Positions 18,968-23,781 of a stretch of 34,663 nt of DNA are shown here, piece by piece. The translations under genes were made by a program, and so were the position numbers. Origin of the DNA: a virus; IMG/VR virus record IMGVR_UViG_3300031251_000072, positions 1 to 34,663 of that record; one strand, 5' to 3'. The notes under the pieces were generated by a model. The model worked only from the letters and a program-made list of their open reading frames with translations. It was not told where the DNA came from and ran no database searches. How positions within the stretch are numbered: position 1 is the first letter of the stretch; the number at the start of each line of letters is the position of its first letter.

Positions 18968-19477
18968 TCAATGCGCCAAACACGATTGCACCGCCATATC
19001 TAAACCACTGAGATAACTAATAATTTCCCGATACCGTCCAACCCAGCGCCGCCGCCAAGTAGGATCAGAAAAACCGACAAACTGGGCCACTTTGCGCCCG
19101 GATAGCGGTTCGACACCCAATTTCCCAGGCTCTGGCCGCACGACATCAAACACCGCCACCCGAGAAATCCGCAGCAACAATGCCTGATCGGCATCCCAGC
19201 TTTGCCGCTCAGCCAGTTCAGCAGCGCGGTCGCAAGTGGCAGAAACCAGCCATTCAGTCGCTTGCGGATCCAGCAAGTACTTAGCCAGCGCAAAACTCAT
19301 GGCATCAGAAGCCAAGCCACCCAACATCCCGGCCAGCTCGCTCTTGGTCAACACCACATCACCACTACGCCCTGAATCGTGTTCAGCCAACATCGACCCC
19401 ACACCCATCAAAGCAATCAACTCGACCCGCTCAAATCGTTCAACCTTTGCTATCAACCACCTCCGCCTGTTCGGCAT
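18968..19477 (-). CDS. Candidate late-gene regulator (Q-like position, C-terminal helix-turn-helix-like)
   Basis: From ATG 19477 the product is about 169 aa. The N-terminal half is helical (ELIALMGVGSMLAEHDSGRS, LTKSELAGMLGGLASDAM, FALAKYLLDP). The C-terminus has SGRKVAQFVGFSDPTWRRRW followed by YREIISYLSGLD, resembling a DNA-binding helix-turn-helix. It is the last early gene before a terminator and the packaging genes, the place of antiterminator Q in lambdoid phages. Sequence similarity to Q is not evident to me, so the name rests on position. The first residues overlap the upstream gene and the true start is uncertain. Confidence 0.45.
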   Translation of the reverse strand: MPNRRRWLIAKVERFERVELIALMGVGSMLAEHDSGRSGDVVLTKSELAGMLGGLASDAMSFALAKYLLDPQATEWLVSATCDRAAELAERQSWDADQALLLRISRVAVFDVVRPEPGKLGVEPLSGRKVAQFVGFSDPTWRRRWVGRYREIISYLSGLDMAVQSCLAH

Positions 19478-19670
19478 ACTGTTTACATTTACGGCCCAAA
19501 AGCTTGCCCTTATCACAATAATCCTCGCCCCACTCAGTCCGCACCCAAGCGCAGCCCGCACACGTCCCGTTTTCCAGCGAGATCAACAAATCCAGCGGGT
19601 CGCGATACCCCCGCCGTTCTAAAATTTCAGCTATCCACACCTCCCATTTAAAAAAACTTCTGCCTGACAT
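19440..19670 (-). CDS. 76-aa cysteine-rich phage protein, possible zinc binder
   Basis: From ATG 19670 the product starts MSGRSFFKWEVWIAEILE. It then has LENGTCAGCAWVRTEWGEDYC and GKLLGRKCKQY. The four cysteines (CAGC ... C ... C) could hold one zinc ion. A longer open frame to 19874 would cross the GC-alternating tract and has an unlikely composition, so I reject that extension. It is upstream of the Q-like gene and overlaps it by 38 bp. Family unknown. Confidence 0.5.
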   Translation of the reverse strand: MSGRSFFKWEVWIAEILERRGYRDPLDLLISLENGTCAGCAWVRTEWGEDYCDKGKLLGRKCKQYAEQAEVVDSKG

Positions 19671-20098
19671 CTTTGGCGGCCATGCGCCCAACCTCGCCCA
19701 ACCTAAAACTTTTAACGTTGGGCGGCTGCAACCCTTGTCTTTTCTACCTTTGCCTAACGTCCAAGGTAAAACAGTAAAATAAAAAAAATAAAAACGCCGA
19801 AGATTACACGCGCGTACACGCGCGCGCGTATGTGTGCGCCCAAGGGAAAAACCTTGGACATTGGGCGAACCCATGCGGAGCGCGGTCTACAGCCGCCCAA
19901 CGTTCTAAATCCGCCCAGGGCGAAAACCCAAAACCTCCATTTTTTGCGTGCGAGCTGCCGCTGGCGCGAGGGCGAAGCGCGGCAAAAGAAAACAGAAAAA
20001 ATCGCGAAAAACCGCTAGCGCAGGCGCAGAGTGGCGCGGCACATCGCCGAAGAACGGCGCGGAAGAAATAATGAGTCCTTCGGACGTTAATTTTGATT
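19671..20098. other. 428-bp non-coding block with origin-like structure
   Basis: No credible gene occupies this gap next to the primase. It holds seven CGCCCA(A/G) motifs in both orientations: tandem CGCCCAACCT at 19685 and 19695, an inverted copy at 19716, then 19837, 19861 (inverted), 19893 and 19911. AACGTTGGGCGGCTG (19714-19728) recurs perfectly inverted at 19890-19904. An A-rich stretch (19764-19795) adjoins a 35-nt alternating purine-pyrimidine tract. Repeats plus an easily melted segment beside a primase gene suggest a replication origin or a regulator-binding region. A+G-rich DNA with several A-runs follows to 20098. Confidence 0.45.
19805..19839. other. Perfect 35-nt alternating purine-pyrimidine tract (Z-DNA prone)
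   Basis: Every step from 19805 to 19839 alternates pyrimidine and purine, mostly CG and CA/TG steps, including (CG)5. This is a strong candidate for left-handed DNA under negative supercoiling. It lies between an A-rich run and a CGCCCAA motif. Confidence 0.85.
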
Positions 20099-22621
20099 TT
20101 AAGCATTCTGACTCTCCGAAGGCGTCGAATATTTTTCAAAGTCCGACTTGATCCGGCGCTGCTCAAGCGGTCTTAGAAACCCACGGCGCCGCAATACCCC
20201 GCACCGAGGGCTTGGCTCTTTCACATTCACCCATCCCATAGCAGCCATCACGCGACCCAAACGTTGCGACATCTCGCCCCTGGGATCGATCTTTTGCCGC
20301 TCTATCCCGCAGCCTTTAATCAACAGGTAATTGGTTGGAAACCAGTTAAAGTCAGAATTGAAATTGTTATTGATGAATGAATCCAGCAGCTCGATCCACT
20401 GATCGTCTTGCAATCGGGCATTTTGTTCGGGCACGAAATACAGATCTTCTTCTTCCCGCGCCGGGTAATAGCGCTCGCCGGAATTCACGCGGTGAATCGC
20501 CTCGGCAAACAACAGCTCTTTATGCTCTCGAAGCCATTCAATATCGATCTCTGTACAGCGGAGGGGCCAGATACGTCGATTACCTGTCATGTCACGCAGA
20601 TACTGATCCAAATTGGTTGTGCCGCCAAAAACACAACAACGAGGCGAAACGATCGGCCGCTTGTCATACGGCCGGCGGAACTTGTCGCTAACCACGGTCA
20701 TGAACTGTTTGAAATCCCGATCTTCGGCTCGGTTAAACTGACCCATTTCGGCGAATTCATGCAACCAAACACCCTGAATGGCCATAATGCCTTCGTTGGT
20801 ATTGATCTCAAACGCGGACTCAGAAAACCACGGCTCAGCCAAGGCGCGGAACAATGTCGATTTACCCTGACCCTGAGAACCCTCAAGAACCAGGCAATAA
20901 TCAAATTTACAGCCAGGCCGGAAAGCACGGGCGATCATGCCCATAATGAAAAACCGGCCGGCCAGCTTTAAATATTCCGAGCGCTCGCTATCAGTAACCT
21001 CGGCCAGCCAGTAATCAAGCCGATCAACACCGTCCCATGCCGGCAGCGAATTTAAATAATCTTTCAGCGGATGATAGCGATGGTAATCTGCAGCCAGGGA
21101 AACACCGTCCTTGATCGTGGACTGGCTCTTGATGACCAGATTTAAGTTATCAACCAGCCACTCATTAAATCGCAAATCGTCAGAGTCCTGCCAATCGCCA
21201 AGTGTTTGGTTCCACGGCGCATTGTGTCGCTCATATGATTGAGCAAATTCGTTATAGCGGATGCAGCCCTTTAGCAGTGGATGATGCCGCAAAATCTTGC
21301 CGATATTCGACATACAAGGCTCATACGCGCCGTTGGATTTTTTCAGCAGATCATCCGACCACCACGGCCCTTGGCCAGGTCGAGGCTCATCATCCGCCGG
21401 CGGCTCATCACCACCCGAACCCAAAGCACCATTCCCGCCGCCAGCGCAAGCAGGTACAAGCGGGGGATTGACTTTGTTTTCCTCGGTATCCGGCAAATCC
21501 GGCTTAAATCGCCGAGATTTAGTCTTAATGTATTCGGCCAATCCGTTAGAGTCCAGCCCGTCGCCGGCCGCATCCACAATATCCCAACCGTTTTTCTTAA
21601 CGCCAGGCTCATCGATGTCCATCACGAACACCGTACAATCAAACCCGGCCAGAATAGACGCAATCTGCTGAGCTGTTTTATAGCCAGGCTGTTGCTCCAG
21701 CGGCAAATAATCAGGCACAAAATCCGCCGGCGCATCCTTGGGTCGCTTTGCGCGTTGGCTATCAGTATCCGGCCAAATCACCACGCGTCGACCAGCACAC
21801 GGCGACCAATCAGCACGATCAGGAACCTTTCCACCGCCTGGCCAGGACAAAACAGCCAAATCTGGAAGGGATTCATGCGCAAAATCCGCACACTTCTCGC
21901 CTTCCACGATAAAAAGTGTCGCCTCAGGCTTGGCCGCCAGGCGATCTAGGCCGTAAAGCGGGCGCGGCTGCGTCCATTGCATCCAGCGCCAATCACATTT
22001 TTTGGTTTTTTCGTGCCGAGCCCAAACCAGAGGATACAGCTCCTTGCCGCCCTCTGAATTAGTGTAACGATACATATAGCCCAGCAGCTCACCGCTCAGG
22101 CCTTTATACGTATAAATGGCCTCCGGTAATCCTCGATACATATGCGCACGAGGTACGGCTGTTACATTGGCAGGTGCCGGCAGGGATAGCCATTTCGGAT
22201 CTAAATCTTTATCGCTCTCGGGCGGATTATTCACCGCCCGAGTAGGCTTTTTCGTCGCAGCAGCCCCTTGGCTGCTGTTAGTTGGTTGTTTCTTTGAGGA
22301 CTGTCTCTTCGAATCCAAATACGGCTCAACGCCGCAAATCTCTGCCACGGCCACCGCTGCCTCAGCAGACTCAATGCCATGCAGAAACTGATAGAGATCG
22401 ATCATATCCGTGCCGATATCGCCGGTCGCAAAATCCACCCACAAACCAGCCTTGCCGGCAACATTCACTTTAAAGCTACCGACATGCGCATCCGCTCGCG
22501 TCGGATTCCGGCACACATATTCCGGCCCCTCGAACTTTCCACCCGGCAACCAGTCGCACACCAGCTGCCGGATCTGATCGAGACTGGCCCGCTTAATGGC
22601 AGGAAAATTAATTTTAGCCAC
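20099..22621 (-). CDS. Primase-helicase fusion (zinc-ribbon-like N-terminus, Toprim, VapE/VirE-type ATPase)
   Basis: This 840-aa protein has three parts. Residues 1-100 have a primase-like start (EYVCRNPTRADAHVGSF, LWVDFATGDIGTDMIDLYQF). A Toprim domain lies at about 233-345 (LFIVEGEKCADFA, VIWPDTDS, VFVMDIDEPG). The C-terminal VapE/VirE-family ATPase has Walker A LEGSQGQGKST at 579-589. It also has WLHEFAEMGQF and an arginine-rich stretch RDMTGNRRIWPL. It probably primes and unwinds phage DNA. A low-complexity linker (380-415) separates primase from helicase. The adjacent repeat block is a natural candidate for the origin it serves. Confidence 0.85.
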   Translation of the reverse strand: MAKINFPAIKRASLDQIRQLVCDWLPGGKFEGPEYVCRNPTRADAHVGSFKVNVAGKAGLWVDFATGDIGTDMIDLYQFLHGIESAEAAVAVAEICGVEPYLDSKRQSSKKQPTNSSQGAAATKKPTRAVNNPPESDKDLDPKWLSLPAPANVTAVPRAHMYRGLPEAIYTYKGLSGELLGYMYRYTNSEGGKELYPLVWARHEKTKKCDWRWMQWTQPRPLYGLDRLAAKPEATLFIVEGEKCADFAHESLPDLAVLSWPGGGKVPDRADWSPCAGRRVVIWPDTDSQRAKRPKDAPADFVPDYLPLEQQPGYKTAQQIASILAGFDCTVFVMDIDEPGVKKNGWDIVDAAGDGLDSNGLAEYIKTKSRRFKPDLPDTEENKVNPPLVPACAGGGNGALGSGGDEPPADDEPRPGQGPWWSDDLLKKSNGAYEPCMSNIGKILRHHPLLKGCIRYNEFAQSYERHNAPWNQTLGDWQDSDDLRFNEWLVDNLNLVIKSQSTIKDGVSLAADYHRYHPLKDYLNSLPAWDGVDRLDYWLAEVTDSERSEYLKLAGRFFIMGMIARAFRPGCKFDYCLVLEGSQGQGKSTLFRALAEPWFSESAFEINTNEGIMAIQGVWLHEFAEMGQFNRAEDRDFKQFMTVVSDKFRRPYDKRPIVSPRCCVFGGTTNLDQYLRDMTGNRRIWPLRCTEIDIEWLREHKELLFAEAIHRVNSGERYYPAREEEDLYFVPEQNARLQDDQWIELLDSFINNNFNSDFNWFPTNYLLIKGCGIERQKIDPRGEMSQRLGRVMAAMGWVNVKEPSPRCGVLRRRGFLRPLEQRRIKSDFEKYSTPSESQNA

Positions 22622-23707: not shown

Positions 23708-23781
23708 TGGTAGCGACCAGAGGACTCGAACCCCTGGCTCCGGGTGATAATCCCGGTGTTCTGCCGCTGAACTAGGTCGCG
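23708..23781 (-). tRNA. tRNA gene, anticodon read as UAU (Ile, AUA), atypical
   Basis: A cloverleaf can be drawn: six acceptor pairs (GCGACC/GGTCGC), D arm GTTC..GAAC, anticodon stem CCGGG/CCCGG around ATTATCA, T arm AGGGG-TTCGAGT-CCTCT, and an encoded CCA. U33 is present and positions 34-36 read UAU. Oddities are C37 (normally a purine), a C1-U72 mismatch and a 4-nt variable loop. It lies inside the early minus-strand operon, unlinked to the attachment site. It may supply a rare-codon tRNA or be degenerating. Confidence 0.75.

Follow-up and report, generated by a model that had tools for sequence, protein, structure and literature searches.

The locus studied here raises the question of what a short, repeat-rich intergenic block may do for a phage in which it lies directly 3' of a primase-helicase gene. 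The whole stretch of DNA that was analyzed, referred to as the window, is the virus record IMGVR_UViG_3300031251_000072 (34,663 bases, one strand). Judged by its gene content, the window is a temperate phage, with a CI-like repressor, a small terminase (PF03592), a large-terminase match and a portal protein (PF12236) detected in Pfam/PHROG searches. A nucleotide search against annotated phages gave no match. The block (19671-20098) is flanked by the stop codon of a VapE primase-helicase gene and by the next minus-strand gene, and the earlier placement between the primase gene and its neighbor agreed with both the gene list and the Pfam/PHROG searches. A sequence-only reading had proposed two possibilities for the block, the phage origin of replication or a region where an unknown regulator binds. 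The features of the locus are as follows.

20099..22621, minus strand: VapE-type primase-helicase, 840 aa (PF05272, 4.7e-64; PHROG primase/helicase families; fold)
19912..19918, minus strand: iteron variant CTGGGCG, closest to VapE (motif count)
19890..19904, no strand: proximal 15-bp inverted-repeat arm CAGCCGCCCAACGTT (repeat search)
19894..19900, minus strand: iteron TTGGGCG inside this 15-bp arm (motif count, repeat search)
19851..19869, no strand: proximal inverted-repeat arm with a degenerate iteron and the iteron at 19861-19867 (motif count, repeat search)
19837..19843, minus strand: iteron TTGGGCG abutting the tract (motif count)
19805..19839, no strand: strictly alternating purine-pyrimidine tract, 35 nt (alternation scan, B-to-Z model)
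19768..19796, no strand: A-rich run that may serve as melting element, next to the tract on the side away from VapE (39 loci show AT excess on this side)
19749..19767, no strand: distal inverted-repeat arm with degenerate iterons TTTGCCTAACGTCCAAGGT (pairs with 19851-19869, 84%)
19718..19724, plus strand: iteron TTGGGCG, opposite direction (motif count)
19714..19728, no strand: distal 15-bp inverted-repeat arm AACGTTGGGCGGCTG (repeat search)
19685..19704, minus strand: two tandem iterons, AGGTTGGGCG x2 (repeat search, iteron family)
19685..19918, no strand: core of the putative origin, a Z-prone tract surrounded by iterons and nested inverted repeats (sequence and conserved architecture)
19440..19650, minus strand: next gene downstream, probable small cysteine-containing protein (translation read by eye in the frame of ORF 19440-19874, start codon provisional; no match in Pfam and PHROG searches)

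A tRNA-Ile gene with the anticodon TAT was also found in the window (23708-23781, minus strand), between the replication genes and the repressor. Bacteria seldom use a TAT anticodon; their AUA codons are as a rule decoded by a CAT tRNA carrying a modified base.

The repeats described by the sequence-only reading were recovered by motif counts and repeat searches. Seven CGCCCA(A/G) motifs are located in 234 bp (19685-19918) in both orientations, at 19685, 19695, 19718 (minus), 19837, 19861 (minus), 19894 and 19912, the first two forming the tandem 10-bp pair CGCCCAACCT. The 15-bp inverted repeat (19714-19728/19890-19904) is perfect, the A-rich run was located at 19768-19796, and the alternation of the tract is strict over its 35 nt. 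A second inverted repeat (19749-19767/19851-19869, 84%), absent from the earlier description, is nested within the first, and the 180 bp adjacent to VapE (19919-20098) contain none of the seven sites. The whole window has 30 CGCCCAR sites against 18.3 expected, a density that predicts about 0.13 in 234 bp; the remaining 23 sites are scattered. An even spread of the motif, named beforehand as evidence against an origin, was therefore not observed, and CGCCCAR clusters only in this block. The GC skew proposed as a further check is negative on both sides of the block without a turn, so an origin here is neither marked nor excluded by it.

The 840-residue VapE protein consists of a DnaG-like N-terminal half (zinc-binding-like and TOPRIM parts), a PriRep1-like helicase (418-740) and a C-terminal domain (741-820). 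Its AF2 model (pLDDT 87.5) matched the structure of SaPI PriRep1 with dsDNA (7pds) over residues 418-821 (Z 32.5, rmsd 4.1, 390 residues aligned), while the N-terminal half matched DnaG (1d0q, 4edg) over 1-104 and 148-373. A fold match to papillomavirus E1 was also found (Z about 10.8). The first ~100 residues are folded like the zinc-binding domain of DnaG (1d0q, Z 11.3), but, read by eye, this N-terminal sequence seems to lack the cysteines of the zinc site.

In the first four viral relatives inspected, with VapE proteins 33-41% identical, short-repeat arrays of other sequence were found around an alternating tract directly 3' of the gene. Loci were then selected by the VapE protein alone, 80 from bacterial genomes and 78 from viral contigs, and the 500 bp 3' of VapE were compared with 2743 control windows of the same loci, using the 99th percentile of the controls as threshold. 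Among the 52 full-length close relatives, the window counted in, the alternating tract exceeded this threshold in 45 and iterons, scored as 7-mer copy number, exceeded it in 41. Both features occurred together in 38 of the 52 and in none of the 2743 control windows. In more distant full-length relatives (profile score 640-850) the thresholds were seldom passed (2 and 1 of 27). The tract-bearing carriers are dozens of phages and prophages, mostly of Betaproteobacteria. The relatives include prophages of Methylovorus, Nitrosospira and Herbaspirillum (L021, L022, L036).

The tract starts a median of 125 bp past the VapE stop (IQR 105-174, 45 loci). In all 39 loci with clear iteron and tract, iterons were present on both sides of the tract, and the innermost copies were directed away from it in 35 of 39 on the left and 38 of 39 on the right. 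The iteron arrays of these 39 loci span a median of 248 bp, and a short stretch with AT excess adjoins the tract only on the side away from VapE (0.59 vs 0.46, p 1.7e-5). In the window, this stretch corresponds to the A-rich run, which lies between the arrays' outer limits and has an AT score of 23; in most relatives the center is the GC-rich alternating tract. The iterons differ in their letters between phages and nevertheless belong to one family, AGGTNNGGAMG, with AGGTTGGACGG, AGGTATGGAAG, AGGTTAGGAAG, AGGTGTGGAAG and others as members and AGGTTGGGCG in the window. Compared with most relatives, the window has a more degenerate array, in which only four copies match a 9-mer core with one mismatch.

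A converse search of viral contigs used only the 19-nt tandem AGGTATGGAAGGTATGGAA and returned 56 stretches; without L105, which the set already contained, 55 new loci remained. A VapE stop was located 4-206 bp from the tandem iteron in 46 of the 55 loci, and a tract was likewise present in 46 of 55; tract and VapE stop co-occurred (Fisher p 7e-8) in these contigs, which partly overlap the protein-selected sample. The tandem specific to the window, GGTTGGGCGAGGTTGGGCG, had four matches in viral contigs, none adjoining VapE. A tandem pair of GGTTGGGCG was seen in four viral contigs (L223-L226) with neither VapE nor a tract nearby, probably in another context.

Genes for proteins related to VapE in the primase half only (L121, L126, L060, L067, L146) are likewise followed by arrays of other iterons, some with alternating tracts; the arrays of this set are TAGACCA x13, TGGACCA x14, CTGCACA x11, GCGTAAC x11 and CGAAACA x7. 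A separate shared element, CCAGGGATCG followed by a variable hairpin and CGGAAAAGG, lies within ~40 bp 3' of the VapE stop, often three bases past the stop codon, in 12 loci (L002, L005, L008, L020, L026, L031, L090, L094, L097, L100, L102 and L103). It was not seen in the window, and no Rfam match was obtained at the element.

The distances between iterons were compared with those between proteins by Mantel tests in 40 loci and by sliding windows along VapE. Iteron distance followed the C-terminal half of VapE given the N-terminal half (partial r 0.68, p 0.0005) and did not follow the N-terminal half given the C-terminal half (partial r -0.26). The best single predictor of the iterons was the last 100 residues of VapE, with a partial r of 0.45 given the helicase. 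Since the end of the gene that encodes the C-terminus is physically nearest to the block, part of this signal may be linkage alone. The gene on the other side of the block tracked the iterons weakly (r 0.26), in a gene set that was picked mechanically and includes some wrong frames. Together with the PriRep1-dsDNA match, which extends over the C-terminal domain (741-820), this co-variation suggests indirectly that the domain probably binds the iterons.

Taken together, the position 3' of an initiator-helicase homolog, the conserved two-sided iterons, their co-variation with the helicase C-terminus and the precedent of SaPI/PICI strongly favor an origin over the site of an unknown regulator. 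The block is thus very probably (roughly 0.85) the iteron replication origin of the phage itself, of the SaPI/PICI rep-ori type, and in the best reading its center is a Z-prone tract that replaces or accompanies the AT-rich core usual in such origins.

Across the relatives, the tracts are up to 59 nt long and aperiodic, with a longest dinucleotide run of 5-12 nt. Their GC content is raised (0.66 vs 0.57), and TA/AT steps are underrepresented for this composition (0.106 vs 0.185 expected), while the share of TA among pyrimidine-purine steps equals background (0.116 vs 0.115). Pairing in the tracts showed no excess over alternation-preserving shuffles (mean z 0.08), by which a hairpin or cruciform was rejected, and tract strength was unrelated to genome GC (rho -0.08), by which a by-product of high GC was rejected as well. 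Between related origins, changes in the tract were mostly transitions (338:112, vs 974:1050 in the flanks), a kind of change that leaves the alternation intact; the pairs overlap in membership and all were tract-selected, so the p-value of this contrast should not be read literally.

The 35-nt tract of the window combines the strict alternation and favorable B-to-Z energy expected of a Z-DNA element. In a simple model of two states, which used hand-entered dinucleotide energies, it has the lowest critical supercoiling for the B-to-Z transition in the 34.7-kb record (best stretch 19808-19827, about -0.041). The top B-to-Z site fell in the 420 bp 3' of VapE in 43 of 51 other loci. Two loci of near VapE relatives (L006 and L087) kept the inverted arms around a poly-T or AT-rich center and had no tract. 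The tract is therefore not indispensable, and the center may be either AT-rich or Z-prone; the window has both. That the layout is kept in dozens of related phages despite differing letters suggests an unusual DNA shape as a working part of the origin. Whether the tract forms Z-DNA and acts through it we put at slightly below even odds.

The best-supported course of initiation would be as follows. VapE would bind the iterons via its C-terminal domain, and two VapE assemblies would probably form, flanking the center. VapE would then melt the center, two helicases would set off in opposite directions, and synthesis would start from primers laid by the fused TOPRIM domain. The role of the tract would likely be topological, with negative supercoiling flipping it to the left-handed Z-form. 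In this form it might hold superhelical strain between the iteron arrays or fix the adjacent point of opening. If the initiator returned the tract to B-form, the strain would pass to the AT-rich neighbor, which would melt.

The main rival accepts the same origin and takes the tract as flexible, distortable B-form DNA, a spacer or a region where the TOPRIM domain starts primers, with Z-DNA never forming. Alternation does maximize pyrimidine-purine steps, which then occupy every second step, and TA at background level gives no evident selection at that level against a step disfavored in Z-DNA. The SCCmec primase also prefers starts in the iterons of its own origin (PMC7581432). However, an easily melted element should be AT-rich, and the tracts are GC-rich and depleted of TA/AT steps; strict alternation over as much as 59 nt also exceeds what flexibility or priming needs. 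We consider this rival unlikely, although it is the one to be taken most seriously.

The other explanations deny an origin. The block could be a control region, that is, an operator array through which a regulator acts or VapE regulates itself, or else a leader or attenuator RNA for the genes that follow, and it does abut the next gene. Its inverted repeats, taken as RNA, fold to a stable hairpin (z -4.5 and -5.4), but no Rfam match was found in the block, and a structured RNA was rejected; direct repeats point to DNA sites instead. Some iterons are also direct repeats, and the copies vary in concert from phage to phage, neither of which is required for RNA pairing. No promoter-like or terminator-like site was found in the block, a control function would give the alternation no role, and the position 3' of the initiator gene also speaks against it; this reading is improbable. 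Still less probable is a packaging (pac/cos) or partition site, for which the small terminase gene ~1 kb away in the window could be cited. Among the 45 tract loci, though, only for the window and L086 did the flanking DNA retrieved include this small terminase, while the tract keeps within a narrow range of distances from VapE; the cos end annotated in VarioGold is ~1.6 kb from the stretch 3' of VapE, and the VarioGold paper names no origin. Expansion of CA or CG repeats can yield alternating tracts, but those found here are aperiodic, have letters unrelated between phages and occupy the same place. Since none of the 2743 controls has both features, chance clustering or a microsatellite is refuted and carries a negligible probability. 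An integron attC site was also rejected, as the core-like GCCCAAC/GTTGGGC is present but attC spacing, judged by eye, is absent.

The reading of the block as an origin of this phage has wider consequences. The loci may represent a widespread class of phage origins with a Z-DNA-forming core, a supercoil-operated switch between two initiator arrays in which the property is selected and the letters are free; we offer this tentatively, at a little less than an even chance. A working role of Z-DNA in bacteria has long been debated, and to our knowledge clean test systems for it are lacking. The vapE gene with ~250 bp would be a small portable system in which alternation could be broken and restored with replication as the readout. 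The layout also offers a means to locate origins in VapE-encoding phages, and it assigns a probable recognition sequence to each helicase C-terminus.

Phage P4 alpha, a primase-helicase fusion and initiator on repeated sites (ori/crr), resembles VapE in these respects, and its protein architecture and repeats differ from those of the VapE system. PMC6092414 refers to P4 alpha together with its cognate ori. The SV40 T antigen and papillomavirus E1 are likewise hexameric initiator helicases that recognize and open their own origin. We know of no counterpart of the Z-prone center in SV40 or papillomavirus origins. In contrast to the predicted C-terminal binding by VapE, these proteins bind the origin by an N-terminal domain (PMC7581432). 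The putative origin of SCCmec Cch2 is similar in being intergenic and in having direct repeats to which a self-loading helicase binds with its C-terminal domain, but that helicase belongs to the Primase_Cterm family, the repeats are three short AAGTG copies and no tract is described in the passages of PMC7581432 consulted.

The closest likeness is to the rep-ori of SaPI/PICI (SaPIbov1, SaPI1, EcCICFT073). In PICIs, the origin follows rep on its 3' side and consists of an AT-rich region flanked by two sets of iterons, and rep and ori of EcCICFT073 were assayed for autonomous replication on a plasmid (PMC6092414). The SaPI Rep helicase recognizes iterons directly downstream of its own gene via the C-terminal domain (PMC7581432). 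Similarly, the window has an initiator helicase of related fold (PriRep1, 7pds), a block beginning at the VapE stop, two sets of short iterons with element-specific letters around a center, and a C-terminal domain as the probable binder. In contrast, the published center is AT-rich, whereas in these loci a Z-prone alternating tract takes its place and AT-rich DNA is confined to a neighboring stretch. SaPI primases are of AEP type (PMC7581432), while the primase half of VapE is of DnaG/TOPRIM type. The carrier also differs: PICI satellites need virion genes of a helper phage, and the window has its own portal, terminases and repressor, so that it is a phage and not a satellite island. A literature search on Z-DNA with phage origins or iterons, thin in subscription journals, gave no matching description. 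As far as this literature shows, the rep-ori arrangement is already known from SaPI/PICI, and the conserved Z-prone center spread over many phages has not been described.
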